From NCBI RefSeq assembly GCF_014174405.1, contig NZ_JACEGA010000001.1:2823501-2887500 (forward strand): DNA of 64,000 nucleotides, read 5' to 3'. Shown piece after piece: positions 2,692-22,713 of the stretch. Below the pieces are notes generated by a model, which did no database searches, was not told the origin of the DNA, and saw nothing but the letters and a program-made list of their open reading frames with translations. The stretch comes from Variimorphobacter saccharofermentans. GTDB taxonomy: Bacteria; Bacillota; Clostridia; Lachnospirales; Lachnospiraceae. The position numbers and the translations under genes were made by a program. Each line of letters begins with the position of its first letter. Within the stretch, counting starts at the first letter, position 1.

Positions 2692-2722
2692 CTATCTCTC
2701 CTCCATATCTCACAAATGATTC

Positions 2723-2869
2723 GGTAATTGCGAAACTTAATAATTGTGGCCATTGCATATACTGTGGATACATGTTCCGAAGCAAACCATAGTGGAAGGA
2801 GCGGGTTTGCGCAGAAATATGTATCTGCTGTATATGCAATCAAGATATCTTCAGAGTTTCGCAATTGCC
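2723..2869. repeat. Large imperfect inverted repeat between GT2 and glf
   Basis: The outer arms GGTAATTGCGAAACT (2723-2737) and AGTTTCGCAATTGCC (2855-2869) are exact reverse complements. Pairing continues inward imperfectly through TTGCATATAC...GATACAT and ATGTATC...GTATATGCAA to a centre near 2795. The whole unit can fold into one hairpin of about 147 bases, which is why similar reading frames appear on both strands. It fills almost the entire spacer between the stop of glf and the start of the GT2 gene. It does not share obvious sequence with the other hairpin repeats in this window. It may be a MITE-like element or a processing/attenuation structure. Confidence 0.8.
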
Positions 2870-2881
2870 TATCACAAATAG

Positions 2882-3985
2882 TTATTTCGGCAGTTCATGG
2901 AATGCATCCAGCGCCCTTCGAACAACACCATCCATGTTGTAGTACCGATATTCCGCCAGTCGCCCGATAAAGATAACATTAGGTTCCTTCTTCATGTCTT
3001 CTTCATATAAAGCAAACTGCTTCTTATGCTCCTTCGTCGGGAACGGATAATAGGGTTCTCCCTCAGCACAGGGAAATTCCTTGCTGATTGTTGTCTTAGG
3101 ATGCTTCTGCCAGGTCAACTGTTTATACTCCGTAATCCTTGTATAATCATAATCATTTGGATAATTTACTACAGGTGCCTCTTGGAAGCGTTCCGTGTCA
3201 TAGGTTTCAAACAAAAACCTCACACTGCGATAGGCCAGTCTTCCATGTTTATAATCAAAGTATTCATCCGATGCACCGGTATAGATTAGAGTGTTATAGG
3301 TAATCTGATCCTTTATCTCTCTGAAATCTGTATTCAGCATTACTTTAATCTTATTGTTTTCAATCATTTTTTCACACATCTTCGTATATCCATGCTTAGG
3401 CATTCCCTGGTATTTGTCAGCAAAATACCGGGTATCACGATTATATCGAATGGGTATACGGGAAATAACGGAGGTGTCCAGCTCACCCGGATCAATGCCC
3501 CATTGTTTCCTGGTATAGGACTCAAAAATCTTTTCATAGATATCCTGTCCAACCTTACTTAGAGCCACATCCTTGCTAGTCTTAATATCCTTAATATCAA
3601 CTGCTTGCTTTTTCAAGAATTCTTCTACCTGGGAGCAATTCAGGTTCAGATTATATAACTGATTGATGGTCTCCACTGTAATCGGCATAGGAACCAGATT
3701 ACCATCTACATAGGTCAATACCCTGTGCCAAAAATCATTCCATTTTGTAAAGCGAGATAAATACTCGTAGACCTCTCGATCATTTGTATGAAAAATATGC
3801 GGACCGTAATTATGAATTAAAATACCATCCTCATTATAGGAATCATAAATGTTACCCCCAATATGGCTTCGCTTTTCAATGATTAACACAGTTTCTTTTC
3901 GTTCATTTGCTATTCTTTCTGCCATTGTTAATCCTGCAAGCCCAGCACCTACAATTACATAGTTAAACTTCATTTGCTTTACCAT
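2882..3985 (-). CDS. glf: UDP-galactopyranose mutase
   Basis: 367 residues, the usual length for bacterial Glf. The N-terminal FAD dinucleotide-binding motif VIVGAGLAGLTMAERIA is followed by the family's HIGGNIYD signature. HNYGPHIFHT and the C-terminal FIGRLAEYRYYNMD block are also typical. The flavoenzyme interconverts UDP-galactopyranose and UDP-galactofuranose in the cytoplasm, supplying galactofuranose for surface glycans. Its neighbours are two GT2 enzymes and two polytopic membrane proteins, so the cluster probably builds a galactofuranose-containing polymer. The start is uncertain between the first ATG and one four codons later. Confidence 0.95.
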   Translation of the reverse strand: MVKQMKFNYVIVGAGLAGLTMAERIANERKETVLIIEKRSHIGGNIYDSYNEDGILIHNYGPHIFHTNDREVYEYLSRFTKWNDFWHRVLTYVDGNLVPMPITVETINQLYNLNLNCSQVEEFLKKQAVDIKDIKTSKDVALSKVGQDIYEKIFESYTRKQWGIDPGELDTSVISRIPIRYNRDTRYFADKYQGMPKHGYTKMCEKMIENNKIKVMLNTDFREIKDQITYNTLIYTGASDEYFDYKHGRLAYRSVRFLFETYDTERFQEAPVVNYPNDYDYTRITEYKQLTWQKHPKTTISKEFPCAEGEPYYPFPTKEHKKQFALYEEDMKKEPNVIFIGRLAEYRYYNMDGVVRRALDAFHELPK

Positions 3986-4067
3986 ACCTTTCCGGTAATT
4001 ATTGTTATTCTTTCCACATTTTATTAGTATACCAAGTATAGATCAATTTTACTAGTCCAACCTACAA

Positions 4068-6128: not shown

Positions 6129-7102
6129 TTCTTCTCACCGCCCCTAATGCATTTTGATATAAGATACCTGGGTCTGTTCTTCACCTCTTTATAGATTTTA
6201 GTCAAATAGATACCAATCATCCCCAGACTGACCATAATTGAACTGCCGATAAGAAGCTGAAGCAGAATCACCGTAGTAAATCCATCCATGGCCTTGCCAG
6301 TGAACTTCATATACAGAGTCTGTATTCCTAATACGATGGTCCCCACAAACATAATAATCCCCAGAATAGTAATGCAATGAAGAGGAACGGATGTATACGA
6401 TGTTATGGCATTCACAGCGAGCCGTATCAGGCGAAGAAATGACCATTTGGACTTACCATTCACTCTCTCTGCCACATCAAATTCTATCTGCTTTCGATCA
6501 TAACCCAGCCAGGCTGACATTCCACGGAAGAATATCGCACGCTCCGGCATCTCTTTCCAGGCATCTACCACTCTTCTGTCCAGAAGCTTAAAGTCGGAGG
6601 CCCTTCCCAAATTAATATCAGCAGTGCGATAAATCACATAATAGAAGAACTTCGCGCACAGGTGATAGATTAGATTTTCTTTTCCTCTTGACTTTTTGAC
6701 GCCCTCAACGACATCATAATCACCCTCTCGCCAAGCTTGTACCATCTCAGGAATGAGTTCCGGTGGATGCTGTAAGTCTGCATCCATAACAAGAACCATA
6801 TCACCGTCGGCATACTCCAATCCCGCACAGAGTGCAGATTCCTTTCCGAAATTCCTGCTCAGTCGTAATGCTGATATATGGACGTTGTCCTTTGCCATCT
6901 GACTGATCTCACTCCAGGTATTATCTTTTGACCCGTCGTCTACTAAGATAAACTCATAGCAAAGATTGTTTTTTATTAAGACAGATTCAATCACTCCAAT
7001 GGAACTTCGAATGTGACTCCCCTCCTGATAAATAGGGATAACCAAAGATAATTTAGATTCCAAGGATCTATTTTGTTTTCTGTCAATTTCATTAATTACC
7101 AT
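6125..7102 (-). CDS. GtrB/DPMS-like family 2 glycosyltransferase with C-terminal membrane anchor
   Basis: 325 residues. The GT-A domain (about 15-240) has LVIPIYQEGSHI, ILVDDGSKDNTW, the conserved LSRNFGKESAL and the metal-binding DADLQHPPE. Two hydrophobic helices follow (about 235-260 and 275-300), the usual layout of enzymes that load a sugar onto undecaprenyl or dolichyl phosphate. The likely reaction is nucleotide sugar plus polyprenyl phosphate. The product would be flipped and used by a GT-C enzyme, which fits the four-base overlap with the polytopic protein downstream. The ribosome binding site AGAAGAGG lies six bases before the ATG. Confidence 0.9.
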   Translation of the reverse strand: MVINEIDRKQNRSLESKLSLVIPIYQEGSHIRSSIGVIESVLIKNNLCYEFILVDDGSKDNTWSEISQMAKDNVHISALRLSRNFGKESALCAGLEYADGDMVLVMDADLQHPPELIPEMVQAWREGDYDVVEGVKKSRGKENLIYHLCAKFFYYVIYRTADINLGRASDFKLLDRRVVDAWKEMPERAIFFRGMSAWLGYDRKQIEFDVAERVNGKSKWSFLRLIRLAVNAITSYTSVPLHCITILGIIMFVGTIVLGIQTLYMKFTGKAMDGFTTVILLQLLIGSSIMVSLGMIGIYLTKIYKEVKNRPRYLISKCIRGGEKK

Positions 7103-7831: not shown

Positions 7832-10800
7832 TTACTCCAGGTCAAATAATCCTCGCCTTACCAGGGTAACTCTTCGATCTGAAATAATGGTTTTTGACGA
7901 ATCCTTTCCATAAGTAAGTGTGACTCGAATTAAGGTAGTCTTCCCCTTGTTCTCGTAATTCAGATTGTCCAAGGGTACCTCAATATAATACTCCACTTCG
8001 CTATCCAGCTTCGCAACCGTAGCATTGGTGTCAAGCCGCCTGGTATCATACCCCTGTTTACTCAGAGCTCCGTTTATCGGATCCACTGTAAAGTATTCCA
8101 CCGTTAGTTTTTTATTGTAAAAGATATTATAATCCTTTACACTAAACTTTAATTTCTGACAGGTTCCCATTCCGGTCAGTTCTTTTCCAAAGGACTGCTC
8201 CGTATTATAGATATCATAGTCCACATATACATAATAATTTCCGTCAGCATCCATGGACTTATTAGAATTCGTCACTTCAATCTCCAGATTCTTGGCTGCT
8301 GCTGAATATGCTGCGAGTAGGGTATTAATAAACAGCTTCATTTCCATAACCGCACTGGAGTTGCCAGGATTCTCAGAAATTGCTGAATGTCCCATTCCTG
8401 AGTAAATAATGTTACCTTTACTATATATGTAATAATTGTTTCGAGCATCATTAGGTGTGCTGCTGTAGATCCCTGCTCCTTTCCCTGAGGCATCCTTGAT
8501 ATTGTCAGACAGGCAGTACCATACCACGATATCATCACATTCCAGGTCCAATTGGTAATACTGGCTATGGGTAACAGCCACTTGAAATCTCCTATCAATC
8601 TCATATGGATATAGGGTCAGTTGTCCATTATTTACCCTCGTTACATATTGATCATCAATATTCCGATCCGTAGGAAAATTGGGGTTGCTAAAGTATTGTC
8701 CTGGTAACGACATGCGATTGAGCATGGTATCACTATAGCCTTGTATATACCCATCCGTTGTATAATCTTTGCCCGCTGCAATCCTCTGTTCCTCGTTCCC
8801 ATAGGAAGTCACACCAAATCGATCCATACCTAGGGTTTCACGAAACCGCTTATTGATTTGGTATCCCCAATGGGGATAATCCGTCGACGAGTAGATACCC
8901 GAGGGTAGATTGCAGAAGGAAGTGGTATCATGGGTAAACAGTACCGTATTTCCCTTATCGATATATTCCTCCAGATTCCGTAACGCATTTTCATTGGCGA
9001 TATCCTTATATATATCTGCAAAGCCCAGAATCAGTATATCTACATTGAATAAACCATCGTGATCATAATCCTCCCATTCATAGCTTCCATATGCATTCTT
9101 GATATTATTTGATATTTCGTTACGATCCTCAAGGATATATCGATAGGTTCCATTCCCGCACAAAGCTTCATAATCGCTAATAGTGATTGACTTCATATGC
9201 AATATATAATCATTTAGGTTTTCCGTGTATTTTTGGAATAACGAATGCTCTGCTAAGTTAAGATTATTACCACTGTCAGCCATAATTTGAAGTACATTAA
9301 TATGTATTTTACTTGCTTCTGCTCCCTTTAAAGCACAATAATTAATCATACTATCCCGGTTATCGGTATTCGATTGATCGATTATTTCAAGCTTCCAGGG
9401 AATGATGCCATAGAAGCTCTCCTCCAGATTATGGTATAGGGTATAATTGACTCCTGCCTTCAGATTATTCTCGGCTACCGCATAACCATCCTCATCCAAT
9501 AGTATTAATCCACCGACATTCTCCATTAATGGTTCATATTTGCCATCTGCATTCATATCAATGTATAGATTTACCCGATAAGTCTTATTCGTGTCACTAT
9601 GATCCTCAATATAGAATCGATATCGCAGTGTCCTATAACTGGAATCAGAACCATTCACATAAATCTTATCATCCGTCAGTCCACTATATTTGGTTTTATC
9701 CCGGTACACAATCGGATAGCAGTTCTCTTCCATAACAGAGCCGTCCGTTTTCCCGAATACAATACGGCACTTCGGTGTAGTCAGTACCTGTTCTAATTGC
9801 TTCACATTCAAATTATCTTCATAGAATAAGCAAGGACTTGCAATGCCCGCTAATGAATAGATGATTGAATTGCTATCTATTTTCATTGTGTTCAGAGCTC
9901 CGGCTCCGGATAAAAAGCCCTTTGCAAGTACTACCGGATAGCCAGCCTCCATAAACTCAATTAATTCCTTCTTCTTTACTGCTGTGATGTCATTGCCCGC
10001 AAACCGGTAATAATCCTCCGTGTCTCCATTGCCGAAGACTCCTCGGAGTTCCTTACTTGCCTTAATACGATCTCCTACATGCAAATAAATCTTCCCATTC
10101 AGTGAGGAATCATTATAGATGGTTTTACCACCGGAATTCTTTCGCATTGCTCCATCCTTTAATCCGAATAAAATCATATCATAGGTACTTCGTAAATCCT
10201 CCACCTTACCGACGAACTCCCGTGAGGTCATGGTAGTTATTTTTACTTGTCCGGTATAATGCGGAAAGAAAGAGGCAAAATACTGTCTGGCATAGGCGCT
10301 TCCATTATAGGAATCCTCATCTGGTGATTTCTTCGGGTTCCAATACTCCTCCGTACCATCCCAGATAAAGTCATTACAGGGTTCAATTTCAAGAACATGC
10401 AGCTTTGATTGATGATAGACAGGGACTTTCCTGCCAAATAGCAAATAATAGATTGCTTCTGCCGGAGTGAGACTGGTGGGTCTTACTCCCCCCCGATCTT
10501 CCTGATAGAAGTCAAATGCCTCCGTATTATAGAAATTCTCATTGATGTTATGCTCTAAAATTATCTGTGTAATGCTGTTATCTCCATTATACGCATAAAA
10601 CCCATGTCGAATGCTTTTATGGGTTTTATCCCCATCATAGGTGAAAAAGCGGTATCCAAGCTCCTCCATCGCTTTTGTTCCATTCAGAGAAGTATAGTTT
10701 TCAAATAAATGATAGGGTAATAGCGTATGAATATTCCATACTGCTGCGTCATCCGCTGTTTTTCTGGTATAATATTCCTTATTTTTATCCTCCGCAAGCT

Positions 10801-11836
10801 CCAGGAAATATCCTGTGGTCATAGGTATTCCGGTATCTACCATTGGATTTCCATTGGTGTCCTTAACCTTAATTGCTTTTACTCGTCCCGTTACGATATA
10901 TTCATTATAAAATCTGCTTGGCTCCATTAATTGCATAACCATGTAGAGCTTTGCTGCGTTAGTGGTATAACCGGTGGCACTGATGCTACCCACCTTCGTT
11001 CCATTGCTGTAATACTTCACAGGTTCGATACTGCTTCCATAGCTTGTATCGGTTGAAAAGGTAGTTACATCAAAGATAATCGGAGCAGGATCGTCACTCA
11101 TAACTGCCTTTTCCAGAAGCCTTACTGTTGTTTCCCAGGTTAGATCATTGGAATAGAAATTCTTTGGCTCATCCTCAATTTTTTTATCTGGATGATAGGT
11201 TTCCCATATCCCAACAAAGCTATCTCCATAATGTGTCTTGGGATTCAGGTATAATAAATCCGCCCTATCAATTAATCTGTAGTTCTCCGGATGATTCAAT
11301 TCATCCGGCGTTATAGTTATTACTTCGATTTCATAATTCTTTATTTGATCCTCCGGAACTCCCAGAGCATACTTTAAAAAGCTATTCTTACTGGTGAAAT
11401 AATTCCGATAACGCACATACAATCCGGTTCCGGAATTATATTGCCATTCTCCCGGTCCATTTCCAATCACATCACCCTCTCCCAGGGACTCGGTATATTC
11501 TTCCTTCCATTCACAGGTCATTCCCTGTGTGGATGCCAGTGTTCCACCAGCAAAGGTATCAAAAGCAGCCTTCTCCAGGGGGATGGGTTCACATCCTTCT
11601 ATCATATACCCAATTTCAGCATAGCCTTCATATGGGACAATTTCCAGTATGACAAAGGGATTTGTTATACTTCCCTTTTTCCCTTCCTCGGGAAAATCAG
11701 GAATTGTGGTATCGGATCCAAAATAGGAAGCAGCCTTTACATGGTTTTCATTCTCCCTTTGTCCTAGAAACCCTGTTGTTCCTACTATGAGAACAACCAA
11801 TAAAATGCCCAGGATACCGTATAATACCTTTTTCAT
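7832..11836 (-). CDS. DUF5057-type secreted/anchored giant protein of the pilus cluster
   Basis: 1,334 residues from the ATG at 11836, which has AGGAGG five bases upstream. An earlier in-frame ATG at 11872 overlaps the upstream gene and lacks this site. An N-terminal signal or anchor (KKVLYGILGILLVVLIVG) is followed by an extracytoplasmic protein. The N-terminal part has FVILEIVPYEGYAEIGYMIEG, which I associate with DUF5057. A repeated scheme of LEIEPCNDF, LHVGDRI and ILILGFADIYKD segments hints at Rossmann-like or ThuA-like modules that examine a gap or threshold (VLFTHDTTSF). A beta-rich C-terminal part follows. It is the last gene of the pilus operon, 16 bases after a PilW-like pilin, so it is probably a pilus-associated surface or adhesin protein. 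No catalytic site is recognised. Confidence 0.75.
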   Translation of the reverse strand: MKKVLYGILGILLVVLIVGTTGFLGQRENENHVKAASYFGSDTTIPDFPEEGKKGSITNPFVILEIVPYEGYAEIGYMIEGCEPIPLEKAAFDTFAGGTLASTQGMTCEWKEEYTESLGEGDVIGNGPGEWQYNSGTGLYVRYRNYFTSKNSFLKYALGVPEDQIKNYEIEVITITPDELNHPENYRLIDRADLLYLNPKTHYGDSFVGIWETYHPDKKIEDEPKNFYSNDLTWETTVRLLEKAVMSDDPAPIIFDVTTFSTDTSYGSSIEPVKYYSNGTKVGSISATGYTTNAAKLYMVMQLMEPSRFYNEYIVTGRVKAIKVKDTNGNPMVDTGIPMTTGYFLELAEDKNKEYYTRKTADDAAVWNIHTLLPYHLFENYTSLNGTKAMEELGYRFFTYDGDKTHKSIRHGFYAYNGDNSITQIILEHNINENFYNTEAFDFYQEDRGGVRPTSLTPAEAIYYLLFGRKVPVYHQSKLHVLEIEPCNDFIWDGTEEYWNPKKSPDEDSYNGSAYARQYFASFFPHYTGQVKITTMTSREFVGKVEDLRSTYDMILFGLKDGAMRKNSGGKTIYNDSSLNGKIYLHVGDRIKASKELRGVFGNGDTEDYYRFAGNDITAVKKKELIEFMEAGYPVVLAKGFLSGAGALNTMKIDSNSIIYSLAGIASPCLFYEDNLNVKQLEQVLTTPKCRIVFGKTDGSVMEENCYPIVYRDKTKYSGLTDDKIYVNGSDSSYRTLRYRFYIEDHSDTNKTYRVNLYIDMNADGKYEPLMENVGGLILLDEDGYAVAENNLKAGVNYTLYHNLEESFYGIIPWKLEIIDQSNTDNRDSMINYCALKGAEASKIHINVLQIMADSGNNLNLAEHSLFQKYTENLNDYILHMKSITISDYEALCGNGTYRYILEDRNEISNNIKNAYGSYEWEDYDHDGLFNVDILILGFADIYKDIANENALRNLEEYIDKGNTVLFTHDTTSFCNLPSGIYSSTDYPHWGYQINKRFRETLGMDRFGVTSYGNEEQRIAAGKDYTTDGYIQGYSDTMLNRMSLPGQYFSNPNFPTDRNIDDQYVTRVNNGQLTLYPYEIDRRFQVAVTHSQYYQLDLECDDIVVWYCLSDNIKDASGKGAGIYSSTPNDARNNYYIYSKGNIIYSGMGHSAISENPGNSSAVMEMKLFINTLLAAYSAAAKNLEIEVTNSNKSMDADGNYYVYVDYDIYNTEQSFGKELTGMGTCQKLKFSVKDYNIFYNKKLTVEYFTVDPINGALSKQGYDTRRLDTNATVAKLDSEVEYYIEVPLDNLNYENKGKTTLIRVTLTYGKDSSKTIISDRRVTLVRRGLFDLE

Positions 11837-11852
11837 TGCAGCCTCCTTTAGG

Positions 11853-12380
11853 TTATGGACTAACCAGTTCATTTCGAAATTTTACATTTCTTGCAACATT
11901 GAATTCTTTTGAGTTATTCTGAAATGTGACTGTTAAGGTGATCTTTTTTTGATTCAACAATTCTTCTTTGCTATCAGGATATAAGCTGACATCCGACACA
12001 TACTTACCCATAAGATTTTCATCCTCTGCATAGGCAATGGAAGCAAGGCTTGTAACTGATCCCGTACTCAGGTTCGGTATGTAATACAGCTGGCTGTTTA
12101 ATTTATCCAGGAATACCACATCACAGACAGTGGAATGATAGATTACCAATGCCTTGGTATTGGCATCGATATTCTGACATTCCACCCAGTTCGCTTCCAA
12201 CATCATATCAAACAGTTGATTCATCACAGTTTGTGATTCCATCTGTAGATCCGTTTCTTCACTTGCATAGGAATAGCTCCGAGAATTTGTTACCAAGAAT
12301 GATATGACAATGGTTACAACTATCGTTGTAACAAACATACCAACGACTAATTCGATTAAAGTATATCCCTTATTATTCAT
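11853..12380 (-). CDS. Type IV prepilin-like minor subunit (PilW-like)
   Basis: 175 residues. The short leader MNNKG precedes YTLIELVVGMFVTTIVVTIV, giving the prepilin-peptidase site G/Y, Glu5 and the N-terminal hydrophobic helix. The rest is a small extracytoplasmic domain (VTNSRSYSYASEETDLQMES) of the PilW/PulJ kind. It would be processed by a prepilin peptidase and inserted at the pilus tip or base. The site AAAGGGG lies seven bases before the ATG. It sits between another pseudopilin and the DUF5057 gene. Confidence 0.85.
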   Translation of the reverse strand: MNNKGYTLIELVVGMFVTTIVVTIVISFLVTNSRSYSYASEETDLQMESQTVMNQLFDMMLEANWVECQNIDANTKALVIYHSTVCDVVFLDKLNSQLYYIPNLSTGSVTSLASIAYAEDENLMGKYVSDVSLYPDSKEELLNQKKITLTVTFQNNSKEFNVARNVKFRNELVSP

Positions 12381-12437
12381 AAACGATCCCCTTTGAGTTT
12401 CTCTTCACTTACAATATACTTTTTAACCTATAGAGGA

Positions 12438-12962
12438 TTATTCCTCGATATAGTGTTTTCCAGTTTTTGTTACCATAAATATGGTTGTTGTATTGCTCCT
12501 GGAAGAAATGATAATTTGCTTCCAGGTAGTTCGAAATGCTCCACTATCAGGCTTCATACTGATTAATAGACAAGGATTATCCCGATTGATTGTAAAGATA
12601 TTCGTTCCGTCTAACCGATCCGAATATTGTATCGTAATATTACTATCCGCTATCAGATTTGAAGTAATGGTATCTGCATCCGTTCTCCATGTACTCTCTG
12701 TCAACTCACCAGAGGAAGTTACCATATTCAGATAATAATTCTTTTCTAAATCATTCCATTCAATTACTACATAATGGTATTTCATTCCCTTGCTAAGGGT
12801 TTGCAATCTTAGTTTATTAAGAATAACATCAATTTCCTTTGCACATTTTTTTGTATCTGCAAACACTAGCAAATTCAAACTAATAAATGCTCCCCCGATT
12901 AAAATGGAAGAGATTGCAATGACAATAATAACTTCAATCAGAGAAAAGCCTCGATCATTCAT
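12438..12962 (-). CDS. Type IV prepilin-like minor subunit (GspH/FimT-like)
   Basis: 174 residues. Leader MNDRG then FSLIEVIIVIAISSILIGG, with the cleavage site G/F and Glu5. The globular part is beta-rich with ITIQYSDRLDGTNIFTI, as in GspH/FimT minor pilins. GGAAGG lies eight bases before the ATG. It follows the PilX-like gene by 14 bases and precedes the PilW-like gene, matching the usual fimT-pilV-pilW-pilX grouping though in another order. Confidence 0.85.
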   Translation of the reverse strand: MNDRGFSLIEVIIVIAISSILIGGAFISLNLLVFADTKKCAKEIDVILNKLRLQTLSKGMKYHYVVIEWNDLEKNYYLNMVTSSGELTESTWRTDADTITSNLIADSNITIQYSDRLDGTNIFTINRDNPCLLISMKPDSGAFRTTWKQIIISSRSNTTTIFMVTKTGKHYIEE

Positions 12963-12976
12963 TCTTCATTCCTTCC

Positions 12977-15094
12977 TTAATTCTTTTTCCAGTTTTCATA
13001 GTGAATCAAGTTCGATACATTGATATAGCCCTTGTCCGACGTGGAGGTAAAGGCACGAAAATACCTAGCTACATCAGCGTCCTGAGATAATATTCGGCTT
13101 ACCAGATCGGATGCCGCTGTGATTTGGGCTGCACTCAAATCAATGGTTTTGTTCGATATAATTAAGCCAGTAAAATTCCGTTCAACGCTAACATCTCCGG
13201 TTGCTATAATAATTCCCTTCTTTCCGGATTGATCATAATGATATGTTCCACCTGCCTCATTATCGATAATGATTACATAATAATGATCTGTTCCAATGAG
13301 AGCTTCCTTTTCCAATACAATCCCACCAGGGTTTCCCATGGCATCTGCTCTGATTTTATCGACATCCAGAATATTTTCAAAGACAATATCCTCGGATAAA
13401 TCTCCTATTCCTTTTTGATGTTTTGTCAAGGTAGCAGTTAGATGCTGATACTCATTCCGATAGTGGTTCGTAAAGGTGGCATTAATTCCCCTTATCAGCT
13501 TCAGCTCCGAATCATAAAGCATCAAATTACCGGCTGTTATATAGGCTCCCGGTGTATTATTGATTATTATCCCTTCCACAGGAAATCCGTTATATATTCG
13601 TTCCGGATAACATAGCATATAATTTTTATAGTATGTAGTCGCCAATTCCTTGGATTTAAAATTCAAATAATAATAAACCACATTGTCGTTGGATCCAAAT
13701 TTATAAAAGGCCTTTTTTACTGGTTGAAGTTCATTTAAATAATACATTAGACGGCACTCGTCCGCAGAAAGAGCTGAGGTATGAAACACTTCAGCATCAT
13801 GGGGAATCGACACCAAAGTATCTGTATTGGTTATGGTATCGTAATAAGCTACATATTCGTCCCAAGTCACCGGATTATGCCCAATGGCAATATATTCGCT
13901 GGGAAGAAGATACACATTCTGACAGCCCTTTAATACCAGAGATTCCCCAGTCGGAATATTGCAATTAGAGTTCGTCCCTGCACCATAACGATCATCTGTA
14001 TCATAGTTAACTGCACCTGAACCGTCATCCAGTGAGATACTGGCTCTCCCTGCCAGGTATAACTTGTTTAATCCGGATAGATCCAGTTTTGCATGAATCG
14101 CATTAATTATGATTGCACTATTTGCCTCAGAGGTCATTCCGTCACTATAGCCATAATACTCTCCTTCCATGGTTACCTTGCTTCTCTTTGCCTCTAATGC
14201 CAAATCATCCATAATATAGCATTTACCCGTTACCTTGAAGATCGTATCTCCTGACATATCCACAGCCTTATTGGTCTGAGTGGTAACCAGATTCGATGCC
14301 CATACCTCAGTATCGGATCCCTGTATTATCAAGCTCCCTCGATCCCTTACAATGATATCCCCTTTTGTAATGATACTGCTTCCAGATATGAAAAGACTTT
14401 TCCCGTTACCAGTCTGTATTCCTTTACTACCAGCATATAGATTGCCCTGTATGGTATGATCCGTGAATTTTGCCACAAGGGCTTGATCTGCAATCAGTGC
14501 ATAATCCTGATAGGGTGCCAGGGAGGATATTTCTTCCTGTTCTTCTGGAAAGTTTATTCGAATATCCGTAGTAATCGAGGTGGAATAACCCTCCGTTATG
14601 CAGACAACCCGTAATCCCTTTATCGTAATATATTTATTGGATGAAGCAGTATCAAGAATCGCAGTTCCCTGTACCTGTGCTCCATCAGCAGTCGGATTTA
14701 ATTTCTTCGTTTCTTTTAGATAACTGTTTAACTTGAGCAGAGAGATTTCTCCGGTAACGGGACTCACAGCCAGGCTCACCTTCATCTCTTCAATAAAACG
14801 ATTATGAAATAAACTTTTACGCATTGCCGGATTCTTCTTTGAATATTGCAGCATCACACTTTGATAAGCTTCAGATAATGCTTTTGATACATCTTCAACC
14901 AGTCCTACTCTAATCTCATCCAGTGCTGCCTCCGCTGTATAAAAGTTGTATTTGGACTTCCGGTCCACTGTCTTCATTTCCATATTGATCAGAACAGAAC
15001 GAACAATGATCGATCCCAGTACCATAACAAAAGCGAAGGCAATCACAACCATAATCAAAGAAGCCCCACGATTATTCAGTTTATGAGCTTTCAT
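12977..15094 (-). CDS. PilX/GspK-like large minor pilus subunit
   Basis: 705 residues, much longer than classical PilX (about 200). The N-terminus MKAHKLNNRG/ASLIMVVIAFAFVMV looks like a prepilin leader and helix, but position 5 after the Gly is Met rather than Glu, as in tip-type GspK subunits. The large remainder is beta-helix-like, with repeated short turns (TIKGLRVV, TIQGNLYAGSKGI, SLIIQGSDTEVW) resembling polymer-forming cytoskeletal or adhesin folds. It may cap the pilus. Its start overlaps the upstream gene's stop by four bases. Confidence 0.75.
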   Translation of the reverse strand: MKAHKLNNRGASLIMVVIAFAFVMVLGSIIVRSVLINMEMKTVDRKSKYNFYTAEAALDEIRVGLVEDVSKALSEAYQSVMLQYSKKNPAMRKSLFHNRFIEEMKVSLAVSPVTGEISLLKLNSYLKETKKLNPTADGAQVQGTAILDTASSNKYITIKGLRVVCITEGYSTSITTDIRINFPEEQEEISSLAPYQDYALIADQALVAKFTDHTIQGNLYAGSKGIQTGNGKSLFISGSSIITKGDIIVRDRGSLIIQGSDTEVWASNLVTTQTNKAVDMSGDTIFKVTGKCYIMDDLALEAKRSKVTMEGEYYGYSDGMTSEANSAIIINAIHAKLDLSGLNKLYLAGRASISLDDGSGAVNYDTDDRYGAGTNSNCNIPTGESLVLKGCQNVYLLPSEYIAIGHNPVTWDEYVAYYDTITNTDTLVSIPHDAEVFHTSALSADECRLMYYLNELQPVKKAFYKFGSNDNVVYYYLNFKSKELATTYYKNYMLCYPERIYNGFPVEGIIINNTPGAYITAGNLMLYDSELKLIRGINATFTNHYRNEYQHLTATLTKHQKGIGDLSEDIVFENILDVDKIRADAMGNPGGIVLEKEALIGTDHYYVIIIDNEAGGTYHYDQSGKKGIIIATGDVSVERNFTGLIISNKTIDLSAAQITAASDLVSRILSQDADVARYFRAFTSTSDKGYINVSNLIHYENWKKN

Positions 15095-16428
15095 TCTTCA
15101 TTCTCCTTTGTCAAGTGGAAGGAAGCATAGCAATTTGAAAAATCTCCTATAGATATCGCTCCTGCTTCAAATATCTCCACTTTCATGCGGTAAATCCGGT
15201 CCTTAGGACTCTGTCTAGATATCATATGATAATCCGTAATACAGGATAGAGATGCCGTATCCAGTTCACCGGTTGATAAATTGGTATATAGGGAGGTTAT
15301 AGCCATGTTTTGCTCATCCTTACGAATGGACAGATTGGCACTGCCTGTCCCTGACTGCTTTACTAACACAAGCTTTGTATTGGTACCATTATTTCTTATA
15401 TTTAAAATATCCTTAAGGACTAATCCGGATGGTGTATAAAAGATATAGATCAGGCAGTCATGATCTCCTCCATTGGAAATGCTATAGGTTTCTTCATATA
15501 ATTCATAAGTCACCTTTTCCTCACTTCCATCATGGTTCACATCCAGATGACAGGTGTATTCTATCTTACAGGTAATCATAACAGAGGTGCTTCCACTTAG
15601 CCTCTGTACGGAAATCTGTATATCTTTTTGAATTGCTTCCTTTATCTGCTCCAATGAATATTTGGCTACTGGCACTGGCGATGGCAAGCCCAATGATAAA
15701 AGACTTTCCAGGTAAGCCTGATAGGCTTCCTGTAGATTCACAAAGTATTCAATTGCCTGCTGATCTGTGGATCTGGAGTTATCATAAACTGCACTTTCTG
15801 TATCATCCGACCAGGTGGTTGTAAACCCTTCCAGATCCAGTACTGTAACTCCCTTCTGATGAAGCTCTGTTAATTGCGGCATATTATAATTATTCATTGT
15901 ATCCGGATATTTCATGCTGTCTCGGTAGGGTGTGGCATCTATTGTAATGAAAGCGTCAAATTCTTTATCGCCCTCTGAGATACCCTCAATTCCCAGGTAA
16001 TAGGTGCTTCTACCAATCGGAGGTGCATATCGGTATACCGATGGCATACCACTGATAATAATACTGCTTTGACCATCTCCCGGAATTGTTCTGACGTAGG
16101 CTCCGCCTGTATTGATATATTCCCCATACCCACCATCTGCGAAGGCTTTCATCTGATAAGCATCTGGATATCCGATTAAGTTGTTTTGAATCAATGAGAA
16201 TTCCTTAACACCATTAAACTGCATCAGAATATCCTCATTGCTGCTATTCTTTATGGCTTCAATCAGATTTTGCCCCAGATTAGTAGCCTTCTGACGAATT
16301 CTCGATTGTGTATTAACCTTTGCTGCAGAAATATAACAGTTCAAAGCAGGCAGCATCAGCAAAGCAAGAATAACGATACTTACTATTACCTCTATCAGGG
16401 AAAACCCTGCATTTTTTTCTTTCCTCAA
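15091..16428 (-). CDS. Type IV prepilin-like minor subunit (PilV-like)
   Basis: 445 residues if the TTG at 16428 is the start. That codon has GGAGG five bases upstream and gives a compact leader of eight residues (MRKEKNAG) before FSLIEVIVSIVILALLML. Upstream ATGs at 16464 and 16440 have poorer sites and would give odd leaders. Glu5 is present. The globular part is unusually long, contains LNIRNNGTNTKLVLVKQSG and has no recognised domain. The gene lies in the minor pilin block and is coupled to the PilX-like gene. Confidence 0.8.
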   Translation of the reverse strand: MRKEKNAGFSLIEVIVSIVILALLMLPALNCYISAAKVNTQSRIRQKATNLGQNLIEAIKNSSNEDILMQFNGVKEFSLIQNNLIGYPDAYQMKAFADGGYGEYINTGGAYVRTIPGDGQSSIIISGMPSVYRYAPPIGRSTYYLGIEGISEGDKEFDAFITIDATPYRDSMKYPDTMNNYNMPQLTELHQKGVTVLDLEGFTTTWSDDTESAVYDNSRSTDQQAIEYFVNLQEAYQAYLESLLSLGLPSPVPVAKYSLEQIKEAIQKDIQISVQRLSGSTSVMITCKIEYTCHLDVNHDGSEEKVTYELYEETYSISNGGDHDCLIYIFYTPSGLVLKDILNIRNNGTNTKLVLVKQSGTGSANLSIRKDEQNMAITSLYTNLSTGELDTASLSCITDYHMISRQSPKDRIYRMKVEIFEAGAISIGDFSNCYASFHLTKENEE

Positions 16429-16483
16429 TCCTACCTCCATTTGTCTGCCTAAGTTGCAGGCCATACTATCCTAAGATCTCATA

Positions 16484-17263
16484 TCAGTTTTTCATACTTG
16501 CAGGCATTTCTATGGTATCAAATATATTCTCCGTACCGATATTCACTCCTGCAATCTCCGTCTCCTCAATCTCTTTCTGAAAGCCCAGTAAATGAAACAT
16601 ATTAATCTTCATAGTTCCATTCAGATTTCCGGTCTGAAGGTCATAGGCCAGATCAATCTCTCTTATATTCTTGCGTTCCTCATGCTTATTAATAAAATCA
16701 ATACATTTTTTTAATCCCTCATAGTTCACCTTAAAATCTATGGACACGATGGAATTATAACCGATAATGGTATTCTCATTGGCCAAGGACTCGGAGACAT
16801 TATCCAGCGAAGCTGATTGTTCACCTGCTACTAGATTCATCTGCTCTGTCTCAGCGTCAATCGTTTCCTCATTGACATTCTCCTGACCCCTAGTATCCTT
16901 ATAAATAAATTCTGGATTTGAAAATCCTATTACACTGATATCAATACCGCTTTCCTGCTCTAAATTCTTTATGAACAGAATCGTTTTATCATAACTTGCT
17001 CCTGTTCCAAAACGATCCGCTATTGTATTTATCTCGTTTCTCATTGTCTCATTCATCACCTTAGTTTCCTCTAGCTTTGCTTTTTTTGATAACAGCTCGG
17101 ACTCTATTGCTTCTAGTCTCCCTATCTCTTCCTGTATCTCACTAGTTTGTTCTTCATTTTTTAAATAGATAAAACGATAGGAAGCAAATACAAGTAACAT
17201 GGCCCCTAATAGCATAAGCAGTCGAATATCCCGATTTGATATTTTTATTTTGGATATACTCAT
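16484..17263 (-). CDS. pilO: Type IV pilus assembly protein PilO-like
   Basis: 259 residues: a short cytoplasmic start, one membrane helix (LLMLLGAMLLVFASYRFIYL, about 15-35), a coiled coil (about 36-85, EEIGRLEAIESELLSKKAKL) and a periplasm-side ferredoxin-like domain with YDKTILFIKNLEQESGIDI. This is the PilO layout. PilO pairs with PilN to link the inner platform to the pilus machine. The start overlaps the stop of the fused PilM-PilN gene by four bases. Confidence 0.85.
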   Translation of the reverse strand: MSISKIKISNRDIRLLMLLGAMLLVFASYRFIYLKNEEQTSEIQEEIGRLEAIESELLSKKAKLEETKVMNETMRNEINTIADRFGTGASYDKTILFIKNLEQESGIDISVIGFSNPEFIYKDTRGQENVNEETIDAETEQMNLVAGEQSASLDNVSESLANENTIIGYNSIVSIDFKVNYEGLKKCIDFINKHEERKNIREIDLAYDLQTGNLNGTMKINMFHLLGFQKEIEETEIAGVNIGTENIFDTIEMPASMKN

Positions 17264-18720
17264 TTATTTTCCCCCTCCCTTTCCGGAGAAGTGTATCTTG
17301 CGGTTATTATGTAATCCAAGGTCACCGTGCCTACTTCATCTGTTTTCATGGTGATTTGCTCCGTCCTTACATCCGTAATCAATGGAATGGTGTTTAATTG
17401 TAGAAATGTCATGGCTGCCGTATCAATATTATCCATAGACACGTCGATTAACACATCCTGGTCATTACTACGAAATGAATGGATGGTTACTTGAGTGGGT
17501 AATTTTTTTTCCAACTCATCAATGAGAGTATTTAATTCCTCCGTCCTGCTATAACAGTTTTCCTCAATTGCTGATATTTCATTTTGAAGCTTCTTTAGCT
17601 TTTCATTTTCTTCATAATACGCTTTTACATATTCCATTCCAGCAATGGATTTCTCAAGTCGCCTCTTTTCTGCTCTCGCCTGAGTAATATTCACGGTCGA
17701 TAGAGTAATTAGTGTCAGGGAAACCGCTACTGCAAAGGCTCCAATTATTATTAGCTCCTTGTGCATGCTTCGCTTTGTTTCCAGTTCCATATATTTCTTC
17801 GGTACCAGACCCAGGGGAGCAAATGCAGCACCTATGCATTCAAGATAATCACTTTGTATCGATTTATCTGTCAGCGTATCCTGATAGAAATTCACACATC
17901 GTAATGTATTGATAAACTTAATATCTATGTTAATCTCTTTTCGAAATAAATCTTCTATTCCTGTTTTCTTAGCTCCGCTCCCAGCCAGATAAATCGATTC
18001 AAAATGTCGATCCTCCTCCTTCGCAGAATAATATTCCATTACGCGAATCAGGTTGCTGATCAGGTATTGAAGCGACTGTGCTTCATCACTTCCTGTACCA
18101 TAGGCAATTGTACGATGGAGCTTCACAATTCCGTTATTTAATATGTATACATAGGTATTCTTTTCATTGATCTGTACATACAGGTTGGTACCCTTTGTAT
18201 GAATCTGTCTCTGTATTACCTGAAGGATACTATTGCTAAGATAATCCACAGAAACAATGTTAAGCTTTAGTATTTTCGCTATCTCATAGTAGGGATGAAA
18301 CAGATTATTATGAACTGCGATAACCAGCAAACGATACTGTTTGTTCTGCATTTTTTCCAGAACAATATAGGATATGACATAATCCGATACGTTAACAGGA
18401 AAATAGTCAGAGGCTCCAGCATTTACGTAATCTTGAATGTCCTTTTGCTTCATCATTGGTATAACAATCTCATGACTGGCAATTCTGGAAGAGGAAATTG
18501 TGAAAATCACATCCGTCACGTTAATATTGGTTACCTTCAGCATCTCCTTCAATGCCTGTGCCATTCTATCCTTATTCAGAATAAATCCATCCTCCATACA
18601 GGCATAAGGTGTATCAAAGGCTTGTGTATAGTAGACCTTTGGATGCTTCCTCTGATAATCCATTACACATAATTTTGTTTTCAGTTCCCCAATTTCAATA
18701 CTCAATACCCTTTTTCCCAT
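17260..18720 (-). CDS. PilM-PilN fusion, pilus alignment complex
   Basis: 486 residues from the ATG at 18720, which has GGAGG five bases before it; the earlier codon at 18738 does not. Residues 1-325 form a PilM-like actin/FtsA fold (VLSIEIGELKTKLCVMD, VTDVIFTISSSRI, YVQINEKNTYVYIL, YLAGSGAKKTGIEDLF). A membrane helix follows at about 330-350, then a coiled coil and the PilN domain (LPTQVTIHSFRSNDQDVLID). In most bacteria PilM and PilN are separate and PilM binds the PilN cytoplasmic tail. Here they are one chain. The stop overlaps the start of pilO. Confidence 0.85.
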   Translation of the reverse strand: MGKRVLSIEIGELKTKLCVMDYQRKHPKVYYTQAFDTPYACMEDGFILNKDRMAQALKEMLKVTNINVTDVIFTISSSRIASHEIVIPMMKQKDIQDYVNAGASDYFPVNVSDYVISYIVLEKMQNKQYRLLVIAVHNNLFHPYYEIAKILKLNIVSVDYLSNSILQVIQRQIHTKGTNLYVQINEKNTYVYILNNGIVKLHRTIAYGTGSDEAQSLQYLISNLIRVMEYYSAKEEDRHFESIYLAGSGAKKTGIEDLFRKEINIDIKFINTLRCVNFYQDTLTDKSIQSDYLECIGAAFAPLGLVPKKYMELETKRSMHKELIIIGAFAVAVSLTLITLSTVNITQARAEKRRLEKSIAGMEYVKAYYEENEKLKKLQNEISAIEENCYSRTEELNTLIDELEKKLPTQVTIHSFRSNDQDVLIDVSMDNIDTAAMTFLQLNTIPLITDVRTEQITMKTDEVGTVTLDYIITARYTSPEREGENK

Positions 18721-18841
18721 TGGCGCCTCCCTCATCATACCAACGCTTCTATTTGTAATGTAATCCCACCTCCTTAGAGAAACATATCACCCGTTGAAAG
18801 AAATTATATGTTTGATAAAGAGGTGGGATTTAACGAAAGGA

Positions 18842-19282
18842 TTAATTTGTTACCGGGCCAATATCAGTTGTTCCTGCAGCTGAACCTATGTAAACTGATA
18901 ATTTCCCTGTTGATTCCTCATAATCAACATAGAGGGTCCCCGCTTTACCCTTTTTCGACTTGGCTTTTGCTTTGATATCTGCTACCGTATCCATATCACT
19001 GTCTAACAGTTTTTTGGCATTTTCCAGCGGCTTGCCTGCACCAATGACATCATCCAAAGGCTTATCATCAATGGTAGACGGTGCACTATCCTTTTCTGCA
19101 ATCGCCGTCTGAACCGCAGTAAATACCGTATGTACAATCTGTATGTCCTTCGCCTCTCTGGATGCCTCCACATACTTGAATACCTGCGGTGCTATGGTTC
19201 CAACCAGTATGGCCATAATCGCCATTACAATAATCAGTTCCACCAGTGAAAAACCTTTGTTGTTCTCCTTCCAGTCCTTCAT
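18842..19282 (-). CDS. pilA: Major type IV pilin
   Basis: 146 residues from the ATG at 19282. Upstream GGAGAAGG suits this codon (nine bases), although ATGs six and nine bases further upstream are possible. Leader MKDWKENNKG then FSLVELIIVMAIMAILVGTI, with cleavage after Gly and Glu5. The mature protein is short (about 136 residues) with a VDYEESTGKLSVYIG beta end, as in gram-positive major pilins. It is placed between pilC and pilM-N, with 121 bases before pilM-N. Confidence 0.9.
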   Translation of the reverse strand: MKDWKENNKGFSLVELIIVMAIMAILVGTIAPQVFKYVEASREAKDIQIVHTVFTAVQTAIAEKDSAPSTIDDKPLDDVIGAGKPLENAKKLLDSDMDTVADIKAKAKSKKGKAGTLYVDYEESTGKLSVYIGSAAGTTDIGPVTN

Positions 19283-19349
19283 TCTCATCATCCTTCTCCC
19301 TTCATTTATGATTTGATAAAACTTTGCTCTCATTAATAGAACAAAGCCC

Positions 19350-20567
19350 TTATCCTAATTTGTCAAAGCCCTGGTACATAGTAATCATGGGCTGAAACAT
19401 GGCGATTAATAGAAACCCGACTACAATCGCTAATACAATAATCATAAAAGGCTCCAGTACCGCTATTAAGGATCCTGTAATGCTTTCCACCTCATCCTCA
19501 TAATACTCCGCGATTTTATCCAGCATTGAGTCCGTTGTACCGGATTGTTCTCCGATTCTAATCAGATGACTTACCATTGGCGGAAACCGATGAACCGAAT
19601 CCAGAGTATCCGCTAGTGACACCCCTCGTTCCACTTCCTTGATCGAATCTGTGATTCCCTGTCCGATTATGATGTTACTCATACTTTTTGCTGTAATCTC
19701 CAAAGCCATCGTGATCGGTATTCCGGCTGACAGCATTGTACTTAACGTTCTTCCAAACCTTGCTGAAGAGGATTTGATAATCAAATCTCCAATGAGAGGG
19801 AGCTTTAATACTGTCCTGCTTAAATACTCATTTCCCTGTTTGGAGCTCTTCAGTAGTTTAAACCCTATAATCAGAACCAATATGAATAATAAGAACACCA
19901 CCCAATTCTTTGATACAACATGACTTATTTTCAAAACCGCCGTAGTGACAGCAGGCATTTCCACTTCCATCTCATCAAACATACTCATAAAATTCGGTAT
20001 TACCTTTATCAGCATTAATGCTACAACGATGACAGAGACGAAAAGAACAATTACAGGATAAATTGTTGCTTTTTTTATGACTGCCTTCAATTTTGCTTCC
20101 TTTTCAAAATGCTCTGCCATACGAAGTAAGGAGTTCTCAAAGCTGCCCGATATCTCACCTGCTTCCATCATATTGATAAATAAGATTGGAAATATATTGG
20201 TATGTGCACTCATTGCCTGTGATAAAGTATCACCTTTCTCAATACTTGCCTTCGTCTTCTTGATTGCCTCTTTTAATAACTTATTCTCCGTATCACTACT
20301 AAGCATGTCCATCGCATGTACGATACTCACTCCTGCTGTAAGAATACTGTAAAACTGTCGGCAAAACACTGCCAGGTCCTTGGATTTTACAGCGCTGATA
20401 AGATCCAGATTAATATCCTTTGTCAGTACATTCTGTTCAAGCACCTGTATTGGCATCTTTCCTTCTGCTTTCAGAGCCGTAATTAGTTTATCTTCGCTGG
20501 CAGCTTCCATTTTTCCTTTTTTCTTTTTCCCACTTTCATCTATATAGATATATTCAAAGGTTGCCAC
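19350..20567 (-). CDS. pilC: Type IV pilus platform protein PilC (GspF family)
   Basis: 405 residues from a GTG at 20567 with GGAGG eight bases upstream, giving MATFEYIYIDESGKKKKG. The upstream ATG at 20609 has no such site. Two GspF domains are seen (about 65-190 and 265-390), with FCRQFYSILTAGVSIVHAMD and FGRTLSTMLSAGIPITMALE as the repeated motif, and three membrane helices. PilC is the inner-membrane platform turned by the PilB ATPase. A strong sigma-A-type promoter lies about 100 bases upstream. Confidence 0.92.
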   Translation of the reverse strand: MATFEYIYIDESGKKKKGKMEAASEDKLITALKAEGKMPIQVLEQNVLTKDINLDLISAVKSKDLAVFCRQFYSILTAGVSIVHAMDMLSSDTENKLLKEAIKKTKASIEKGDTLSQAMSAHTNIFPILFINMMEAGEISGSFENSLLRMAEHFEKEAKLKAVIKKATIYPVIVLFVSVIVVALMLIKVIPNFMSMFDEMEVEMPAVTTAVLKISHVVSKNWVVFLLFILVLIIGFKLLKSSKQGNEYLSRTVLKLPLIGDLIIKSSSARFGRTLSTMLSAGIPITMALEITAKSMSNIIIGQGITDSIKEVERGVSLADTLDSVHRFPPMVSHLIRIGEQSGTTDSMLDKIAEYYEDEVESITGSLIAVLEPFMIIVLAIVVGFLLIAMFQPMITMYQGFDKLG

Positions 20568-20664
20568 CTGCCATTCCTCCTTATATGCGAATTTAGTATC
20601 ATATTGCACCTTAATTTTTAACGCTGTCGTAAATGGTAATTTTTGTAAATCAATTTATGGTTCT

Positions 20665-20693
20665 ATTTTAGCTTACATATTTTTCCATGTCAA
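20665..20693 (-). promoter_or_regulatory. Sigma-A-type promoter for pilC and downstream pilus genes
   Basis: Read on the minus strand, TTGACA (20688-20693) and TAAAAT (20665-20670) are 17 bases apart. This is a near-consensus vegetative promoter about 98 bases before the pilC GTG. It suggests that pilC-pilA and later genes can be transcribed apart from pilB. Confidence 0.75.
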
Positions 20694-20778
20694 TATGTGG
20701 AGTATGTTTTATACAAAAAAAGTTCCTAATTCTATAATTTTGTTAATAATTGGTAACATATATCAATCCCTGTAATTC

Positions 20779-22485
20779 CTATACCTCTGCTATCGCAATT
20801 CGTCTCATTTCAGATAATGATGTAACCCCATCCAACACCTGCTGCCTTGCATTTACATACAAAGTACTCATTCCTTCAGACAATGCAGCCTGATGGATCT
20901 CATCTGAGGAGCCTTTTCGATTAATAATACTTCGTATCTTCTGTGTAACCGGCATAATTTCATAAATACCGATTCTGCCCAGATATCCAGTACCATTACA
21001 ATGAATGCAGCCTTCGGGTTTATATAGCTGCAGTTCCTCAGAATCACATCTAAGATATTCCCTTTCCTCTTTCGTAGCATAGTATCCCTTTTTGCAACCA
21101 CACAACCTCCTAACCAGGCGCTGTGCGATAACCCCGATGGTTGCATCTCCAATCAAATACGGTTCGATGCCCATATCCACCAATCGGGTAATGCTGCTTG
21201 CTGCACTATTCGTATGTAATGTACTTACCACAAGATGACCGGTTATGGATGCCTTAACAGCAATTCCGGCCGTCTCGCTATCTCTTATTTCCCCAATCAT
21301 GATGATATCCGGATCCTGTCTTAGGATTGCACGTAATGCAGTTGCGAAGGTTAAATCTGCTTTCGTATTCACTTGTACCTGATTGATTCCATCAATATTT
21401 GCTTCTACCGGATCTTCAACAGTAATAATATTTACCTCATTTTGATTCAATTCACTTAATACCGTATATAAGGTTGTAGATTTTCCACTTCCTGTAGGGC
21501 CTGTTACTAATAACAGCCCATGAGGAGTCTGAAGCAAACGATTGAATTTTATCAGATCACTATCCGTAAGCCCCAACTCTGCTTTATTGCGATTTAACAT
21601 CCTTGTCTCCGAAAGTCGCATAACAGCCTTTTCACCATAGGAGGTTGGTAGAATGGATACGCGGATATCGAACTCCTTTCGGTCTACCTCTATAGTAATT
21701 CGTCCATCCTGGGGCTTCCTTTTTTCCGCTATATCCATTCCTCCAAGAATTTTAATTCTTGCAATGATGGCAGATAATAAAGCGGATTGATAGGCTGCTG
21801 CTTCTTTTAATACCCCATCCACACGGTAACGAATTCGAACTCTTCTCTCCAATGCCTCTATATGAATATCACTGGCACGCTGCCTTACTGCTTGCTCAAT
21901 CATATTTCGTACCAGCTTGACTATGGGAGAACGATTCACCTCCAGTTTATTGTTCTCCTCTAATTCTTCCAACGCATATTGTCTCTTTTCCCATTCCATC
22001 GCATAAGAGTCTGCAATCCTTTTATTCTCTGCATTTCCATAATACTTATCAATTGCAGATTTAATGTCACAGGGTGTTGCAATAACCGGTTCAATCTGAT
22101 AATTTGTCAGGATACTCAAGTCATCAATCGCAACGATATCCATGGGATCCGCCATTGCTACACGAAGTATACTGGGAGTATCCTGATGAAAGGAAAATGG
22201 CATAACCACATACTTATCAAGAATTTCCCGTTCTGATATTAGATTGACAACCTTATCCGGGATTTTATATTCTGACAGCGTAACAAACTCTGTATGAAGC
22301 TGCTGCGTCAAAGCGCATGCTATTTCTACTTCCGACGTAATACCCATATCAACAAGGGTCTCTCCCAGTTTTTTCCCCTTGTTAAGCTTTTGCTCCTCAA
22401 GGGCCTTCTCAAGCTGTTCCGAAGTAACAACTCCGGAATCCAGCAAAATATTGCCCAGTTTTTTCTTTTCCCTAAAGTTTCCCAT
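20779..22485 (-). CDS. pilB: Type IV pilus extension ATPase PilB (GspE family)
   Basis: 568 residues from the ATG at 22485 (GGAGG five bases upstream; a TTG 12 bases earlier is less likely). The N-terminal MshEN-type region has two related motifs, KLGNILLDSGVVTSEQLEKA and KLGETLVDMGI. The ATPase has Walker A GPTGSGKST, the Asp box and the Walker B DIIMIGEIRDSETA. A tetracysteine zinc site follows (CGC...CIHCNGTGYLGR). It powers pilus extension at the membrane. The tandem motif matches the pattern known for c-di-GMP binding in MshE; that it binds c-di-GMP here is inference. Confidence 0.93.
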   Translation of the reverse strand: MGNFREKKKLGNILLDSGVVTSEQLEKALEEQKLNKGKKLGETLVDMGITSEVEIACALTQQLHTEFVTLSEYKIPDKVVNLISEREILDKYVVMPFSFHQDTPSILRVAMADPMDIVAIDDLSILTNYQIEPVIATPCDIKSAIDKYYGNAENKRIADSYAMEWEKRQYALEELEENNKLEVNRSPIVKLVRNMIEQAVRQRASDIHIEALERRVRIRYRVDGVLKEAAAYQSALLSAIIARIKILGGMDIAEKRKPQDGRITIEVDRKEFDIRVSILPTSYGEKAVMRLSETRMLNRNKAELGLTDSDLIKFNRLLQTPHGLLLVTGPTGSGKSTTLYTVLSELNQNEVNIITVEDPVEANIDGINQVQVNTKADLTFATALRAILRQDPDIIMIGEIRDSETAGIAVKASITGHLVVSTLHTNSAASSITRLVDMGIEPYLIGDATIGVIAQRLVRRLCGCKKGYYATKEEREYLRCDSEELQLYKPEGCIHCNGTGYLGRIGIYEIMPVTQKIRSIINRKGSSDEIHQAALSEGMSTLYVNARQQVLDGVTSLSEMRRIAIAEV

Positions 22486-22693: not shown

Positions 22694-22713
22694 AGCCGGG
22701 GTTTTCCCCGGCA
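22694..22713 (-). terminator. Strong GC hairpin between pilB and recG
   Basis: GCCGGGG (22695-22701) pairs with CCCCGGC (22706-22712) across a four-base loop. On the minus strand it is followed by TATTTATTTA, a moderate T-rich tail. It could end recG transcription, about 230 bases after its stop. Confidence 0.55.

Follow-up and report, generated by a model that had tools for sequence, protein, structure and literature searches.

Introduction

Among the described systems closest to the locus analyzed here, the tapirins of Caldicellulosiruptor (PDB: 4WA0, 6N2B, 6N2C) are encoded by genes that, in the original tapirin abstract, reportedly adjoin a pilus operon and were regarded as specific to these thermophiles. 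They bind cellulose and contain a β-helix (PMC7142884), and their attachment to pili has been mentioned (PMC10267330). In diderm type IVa pili, PilY1/PilC, a large non-pilin whose gene lies close to those of the H-I-J-K minor pilins, has been described as a pilus cap (PMC10191384), next to which PilX, a pilin lacking Glu5, is placed (PMC7541494). ComZ of Thermus thermophilus (PDB: 6QVI), a GspK-like pilin with a β-solenoid inserted before its last strand, is reported to recognize DNA, and in the monoderm Streptococcus sanguinis adhesive domains are grafted onto the minor pilins PilB and PilC, for which the accessible part of the source mentions no secreted non-pilin partner (PMC8179133). Here, we describe a type IV pilus (pil) operon at positions 7,832 to 22,485 of a 64,000-nucleotide stretch of the Variimorphobacter saccharofermentans genome (referred to below as the window), which encodes both a PilX-like minor pilin with a predicted tapirin-like β-solenoid and a large protein of the DUF5057 family.

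The locus shares features with each of these systems and departs from each. Caldicellulosiruptor can have two K genes in a row, whereas the window has one, followed by the DUF5057 gene; its host belongs to the Lachnospiraceae, and while cellulose binding is known for tapirins, the likeness here comes from a predicted fold. The solenoid is nearer to that of the tapirins than to that of ComZ, and it takes the place of the vWA and lectin modules of S. sanguinis PilB/PilC (PMC8179133). Like PilY1, DUF5057 is a non-pilin encoded with minor pilins, but the PilY1 propeller was not found in it, and ThuA-like and Ig-like domains are predicted instead; its likeness to ThuA-like/class I amidotransferase proteins (PDB: 4JQS) is one of fold only, within a multidomain and apparently secreted protein.

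Results

The genes and domains discussed below are as follows (window coordinates, all on the minus strand; c-di-GMP, cyclic di-GMP).

20779–22485, minus: PilB, extension ATPase with an N-terminal MshEN c-di-GMP-binding motif (T2SSE, 452.6 bits; MshEN, 60.5 bits; start at ATG 22485)
19350–20567, minus: PilC, platform protein (T2SSF, 195.6 bits, two stretches)
18842–19333, minus: PilA, major pilin (N_methyl, 34.2 bits; Glu at +5; position after PilC)
17260–18738, minus: PilM-PilN fusion, 492 residues (PilM_2, 38.1 bits, cut-off 27; PilN, 20.3 bits, cut-off 22.8)
16484–17263, minus: PilO-like protein (position and conserved order in relatives)
15091–16428, minus: PilV-like minor pilin (I-type), 445 residues (N_methyl, 31.8 bits)
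12977–15094, minus: PilX-like minor pilin (K-type), 705 residues, without Glu5 (alignment, AlphaFold model, tapirin and ComZ structure matches)
13025–14533, minus: predicted tapirin-like β-solenoid insert of the PilX-like protein, residues 188–690
12438–12962, minus: FimT/GspH-like minor pilin (H-type; N_methyl, 35.5 bits)
11853–12380, minus: PilW/GspJ-like minor pilin (J-type; N_methyl, 27.2 bits)
7832–11836, minus: DUF5057 protein, 1334 residues, with a hydrophobic signal-like N terminus, proposed non-pilin tip cap (PF16480, 188.1 bits)
8927–9994, minus: Pfam DUF5057 match within the DUF5057 protein
9320–9772, minus: Ig-like domain of DUF5057, residues about 689–839
8288–9331, minus: predicted ThuA/class I amidotransferase-like domain of DUF5057, residues 836–1183
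7835–7858, minus: conserved extreme C terminus of DUF5057 (RRGLFDLE), proposed docking strand (motif pattern in relatives)
22695–22712, minus: all-GC hairpin of 7 bp with a T-rich stretch after it, in the recG/pilB gap (pattern scan)

The PilX-like protein gave no Pfam or NCBIfam match at E ≤ 0.01 and was classed as a K-type pilin by alignment together with its AlphaFold model (mean predicted local distance difference test [pLDDT] score 86.5, predicted template modeling [pTM] score 0.70). The operon encodes four minor pilins, and Glu5 is missing from K alone: it is present in 0 of 51 aligned PilX-like rows and in every PilV-like (27/27), FimT-like (25/25), and PilW-like (24/24) row, so that PilV, PilX, FimT, and PilW would correspond to the usual I-K-H-J set, the PilX fold being the one that was modeled. 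Structures were compared with Foldseek and then with VIA-align, the second comparison being needed; with the latter, the PilX-like model matches the tapirin and ComZ structures, and it is predicted to contain a long β-helix domain of the 4WA0 type. As expected of a tapirin gene, the pilX-like gene lies directly after that of PilV in a pil operon and encodes a prepilin-like N terminus. A preliminary description of the locus had proposed a specialized, perhaps substrate-binding pilus tip from the great length of the PilX-like, PilV-like, and DUF5057 proteins, and the resemblance of the PilX-like model to tapirins lends support to such a tip.

The best start of the DUF5057 gene is ATG 11836, with AAAGGAGG just upstream, 16 bp past the stop codon of the PilW-like gene. 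Its product is a non-pilin encoded with minor pilins, and a secretion signal, judged by hydrophobicity only, is present. The model of residues 45–1200 (pLDDT 90.7, pTM 0.85) predicts a ThuA-like/class I amidotransferase fold for residues 836–1183 (VIA-align). The first domain gave no fold match: hhalign of residues 55–330 against 478–720 yielded 1.2%, and of 478–720 against 842–1185 89.7%. The PilY1 β-propeller (PF05567) was not found in the protein, in which PF16480 was the only Pfam match at E ≤ 0.01. Among the best 120 of 742 DUF5057 relatives (37 of them used in profile A1 and 92 in profile A2), 115 end in the C-terminal motif pattern, and this extreme C terminus is still recognizable in several short forms.

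DUF5057 co-occurs with pilus genes. A survey covering 298 genomes from the window's family found it in 64 by Pfam and in a further 5 with a sensitive profile, which was applied to G018 and to 24 of the 234 genomes negative by Pfam; pilMN is present in 68 of these 69 positive genomes. Linkage was scored by position for the 68 genomes and gene by gene at the loci examined: pilMN lies on the same contig within 17 kb of the DUF5057 gene in 59 genomes and on another contig in 9, and in none does it lie at a distance on the same contig. The exception, G018 (locus L125, 7879–13838), has PilB, PilT, a truncated PilC, and directly thereafter a truncated DUF5057, and looks like a deletion remnant. DUF5057 genes are thus not regularly found without pilus genes; had they been, this would have spoken against the earlier interpretation of DUF5057 as a pilus component. 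The co-occurrence supports that interpretation, in which the protein would be located on the pilus itself. The locus set comprised 80 of the 246 relatives from a scan of named genomes. In 69 of these loci an upstream neighbor could be read, and it is a prepilin directly before DUF5057 in 57, is cut by the contig end in 6, and is separated by a small open reading frame (ORF) or a frameshifted piece in 6; the other 11 loci either start close to or right at a contig edge or have no neighbor within the limits used. Lachnoclostridium phytofermentans (L065) is among the relatives with the operon. DUF5057 is also found in the pil operon of a genome from the same class and a different family (G621). 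The PilW-like pilin preceding DUF5057 is enlarged to 676–1099 residues in five loci (L040, L060, L067, L088, and L092); Pfam found only the prepilin motif in four of these and also Ig domains in the fifth. In six loci (L062, L096, L111, L117, L123, and L124), the pil operon is followed by a gene that we take, from the N-termini, to encode a topoisomerase I-like protein, and in some of them there are also genes that, again from N-termini, are presumably flagellar-like.

Across genomes, the presence of DUF5057 tracks that of the tapirin-like insert. Profile A3 was built from the pilX gene of the window and those of 50 loci, and profile A8 from 38 of these 51 rows; pilX falls within the stretch in 61 of the 80 loci, and all 61 carry the insert. 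Among genomes with pilMN, 68 have both insert and DUF5057, 3 the insert only, none DUF5057 only, and 14 neither (Fisher's exact test, p = 1.8e-13, a value that ignores kinship). A clear match to pilMN with no DUF5057 by profile was seen in 17 of the 298 genomes; the insert is absent from 14 of them, none of which has DUF5057, and present in G013, G224, and G084. The gene that comes next in G013 and G224 specifies a protein with a signal, and of the ORFs compared this protein ranks first against an extended DUF5057 profile (E = 1.8e-6, with bias exceeding the score, and 5.3e-5, respectively). A weak match on another contig of G084 was considered as a DUF5057 candidate and not confirmed, and G117, where the insert match is weak (E = 1.2e-4) and pilMN is not among the matches listed, was excluded from the table. 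The 12 K proteins of insert-negative loci comprise 5 of 189–348 and 7 of 487–784 residues; in the latter, the profile match is confined to the pilin part, and three long K proteins have no similarity to the insert. The preliminary view is therefore refined: DUF5057 accompanies the tapirin-like insert and not every pil operon of this kind. We regard the link as suggestive rather than proven.

The insert profile also matches 18 of 398 genomes of the phylum, including four species of one genus. Because the pil operon of one of these (L145) adjoins a GH9-GH48 cellulase gene and a sister species has a protein that matches tapirin 4WA0 along its whole chain (639 bits), we identify this genus as Caldicellulosiruptor, which the GH9-GH48 arrangement presumably fits. 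Its 897-residue K protein is matched in all 12 species, over the whole length in four and in the N-terminal part only in eight. Eight pil loci of the genus were read: three (L170, L171, and L173) have two tapirin-type genes in tandem immediately downstream of PilV, L172 has a 638-residue K protein in the same position, and four (L145 and L149–L151) have a K protein of 897–900 residues. The K protein of L145 scores above the PilX_N cut-off and matches the insert profile (hhalign, 98.5%), and the N terminus of the classical tapirins of the same genus matches the PilX pilin-domain profile (hhalign, 92.5%), which suggests that tapirins are K-type tip pilins occupying the K slot of the pil operon. 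A secreted protein in L145 was considered as a tapirin and rejected, being a vWA protein; the tapirins were found in the sister species. Secreted-looking vWA proteins follow the K or J pilin gene in L145, L149, L150, L151, and L147 (profiled in L145 and L147), where they occupy the place of DUF5057 in the Lachnospiraceae operons. A literature search, poor in subscription journals, found no paper describing tapirins as pilins and none on DUF5057 or PF16480.

The window operon has the composition of a monoderm type IVa pilus: PilB, PilC, a major pilin, and PilM, PilN, and PilO (the last by position) are encoded together, PilT and PilD elsewhere in the genome, and no outer-membrane secretin was found. 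That pilT, a prepilin peptidase gene, and a secretin gene are missing from the window had been pointed out before; the genome search located pilT (C1:2791080–2792141; L015, 5081–6142) and pilD (C1:2790266–2791183; L015, 4267–5184) outside it, adjacent to each other and ∼31 kb to its left. In relatives whose stretches span pilA and pilMN, pilD sits between the two in 29 of 30 loci, and several relatives have a PilT-like piece upstream of pilC; pilT and pilD seem to have been relocated together out of the operon in the window's genome. The secretin search gave no match in this genome (96% complete) and was positive in 6 of 14 control genomes, and a search for PilY1 elsewhere in the genome gave no match, either there or in any control genome. 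Two Tad-type loci are present in the same genome (L017, 3833–7914; L016, 2789–7365), and the TadB-like ORF of L017 has, by eye, an end unlike that of TadB and may be interrupted.

ORFs and Pfam matches bear out the one-directional operon described previously, with ten tightly packed leftward ORFs on one strand from pilB to DUF5057; two neighboring pairs overlap by 4 bp, and the widest gap, of about 211 bp, separates pilB from pilC. The sizes given for the PilX-like, DUF5057, and PilV-like proteins were also correct, the last if translation starts at 16428 (its ORF is open from 16464; TIGR02523 PilV, 38 bits, below that model's cut-off). The pilC ORF is open from 20609, and GTG at 20567, read from the sequence, is its likely start. 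The c-di-GMP motif of PilB is also matched by NF053729 (60.1 bits, cut-off 38). The PilN half of the fusion scores just under its Pfam cut-off, and the distinct M and N genes in L146–L148 match the respective halves of the fusion profile; in L170–L173, pairs of smaller proteins match the fusion. Pfam and NCBIfam scans gave no family match for the PilO-like protein, which is assigned by position and conserved gene order only.

As to a promoter or terminator that might separate DUF5057 from the operon, a pattern scan found no terminator-like site on the operon strand in any gap within it; this weighs little, since the scan was no richer than shuffled sequence (13 versus 11.4 terminator-like sites and 65 versus 66.5 promoters) and evidence from it is weak either way. 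The hairpin in the recG/pilB gap is a possible end of the recG unit, and beyond DUF5057 the next gene lies 333 bp away, with a promoter-like site in the gap. At gathering scores, 23S ribosomal RNA was the only known RNA found in the window; neither a c-di-GMP riboswitch nor any other known RNA was found upstream of pilB, whose product carries the MshEN-type motif. Near the operon, two glycosyltransferases and a UDP-galactopyranose mutase (1987–7102) suggest a galactofuranose-containing surface glycan.

Discussion

Given the gene order, the co-occurrence, the predicted folds of the K protein and of part of DUF5057, and the Glu5 pattern, we think it likely that the operon encodes a retractable monoderm type IVa pilus with a specialized tip, formed by the tapirin-like solenoid of K and a DUF5057 cap; Sec export, tip location, docking, ligand class, and c-di-GMP control are parts of this model that we infer. 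PilV, PilX, FimT, and PilW would form an I-K-H-J complex that initiates the filament, and the β-solenoid of K, placed between the last two strands of the pilin fold, would bind insoluble polysaccharide or a similar surface. DUF5057 would leave the cell by the Sec pathway and be anchored to the minor pilins at the tip, beside the solenoid and probably via its conserved C-terminal strand. There it would take the role of PilY1 in diderms, serving as the cap, as a primer, and as a second adhesive module. Extension of this tip would be driven by PilB, with probable tuning by c-di-GMP, and its retraction by PilT.

Several results weigh against this reading. The matches that Foldseek by itself gave for the two models were weak (best E = 0.028), the insert and the classical tapirins are hardly alike in sequence (hhalign, 19.3%), and a search of the PDB with profile A3 found no tapirin among matches up to E = 10; the sequence likeness being weak, the link to tapirins rests on the predicted model and on gene position. 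G084 has the insert and no DUF5057 was found in it. The insert profile was itself derived from DUF5057-positive loci, and three DUF5057-negative loci scored as insert-negative (L112, L114, and L119) may carry a diverged insert (hhalign, 68.4%); if these are recounted, the table becomes 68, 6, 0, and 11. In addition, a PilMN tree of 62 rows, on which 6 changes map to the insert and 8 to DUF5057, contains only three supported independent pairs (sign test, p = 0.25).

With so few independent events, the association of insert and DUF5057 could reflect the shared descent of one operon type and imply no contact between the two, a somewhat doubtful explanation in our view, since insert-negative operons are scattered over the tree and DUF5057 is concordant in every supported pair. 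Alternatively, DUF5057 could be a surface protein or a secreted passenger that only shares the expression of the operon and is exported or regulated by the pilus or by pseudopilus-like minor pilins, while not being part of the tip. Operon position alone cannot separate a passenger from a tip component, the ThuA-like fold predicted for DUF5057 is enzyme related, and the type II H-I-J-K complex contacts secreted effectors (PMC10191384). However, DUF5057 tracks one domain of one minor pilin, its extreme C terminus is conserved and recognizable even in several short forms, and PilT is present. Moreover, a monoderm releases Sec substrates without the need of a pseudopilus, and we consider the passenger explanation unlikely. 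A tip in which DUF5057 and the K insert bind DNA for natural transformation, as proposed for Thermus ComZ, rather than polysaccharide, appears quite improbable.

The proposed solenoid-and-cap tip suggests that the PilY1-type cap, described for diderms, has monoderm counterparts. For the wider family, we see it as an evenly balanced proposition that tapirins are a branch of a widespread class of solenoid-bearing K tip pilins, with DUF5057 as a C-terminally docked PilY1-like cap in Lachnospiraceae and secreted vWA or carbohydrate-binding proteins elsewhere; monoderms would then own an exchangeable non-pilin pilus tip of a kind so far described for diderms. The suggestion that tapirins are K-type tip pilins addresses their identity, and DUF5057 gains a first testable role. 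Such a tip may also be the means by which numerous Lachnospiraceae, Roseburia faecis and an Agathobacter genome among them, grip fiber or mucus.

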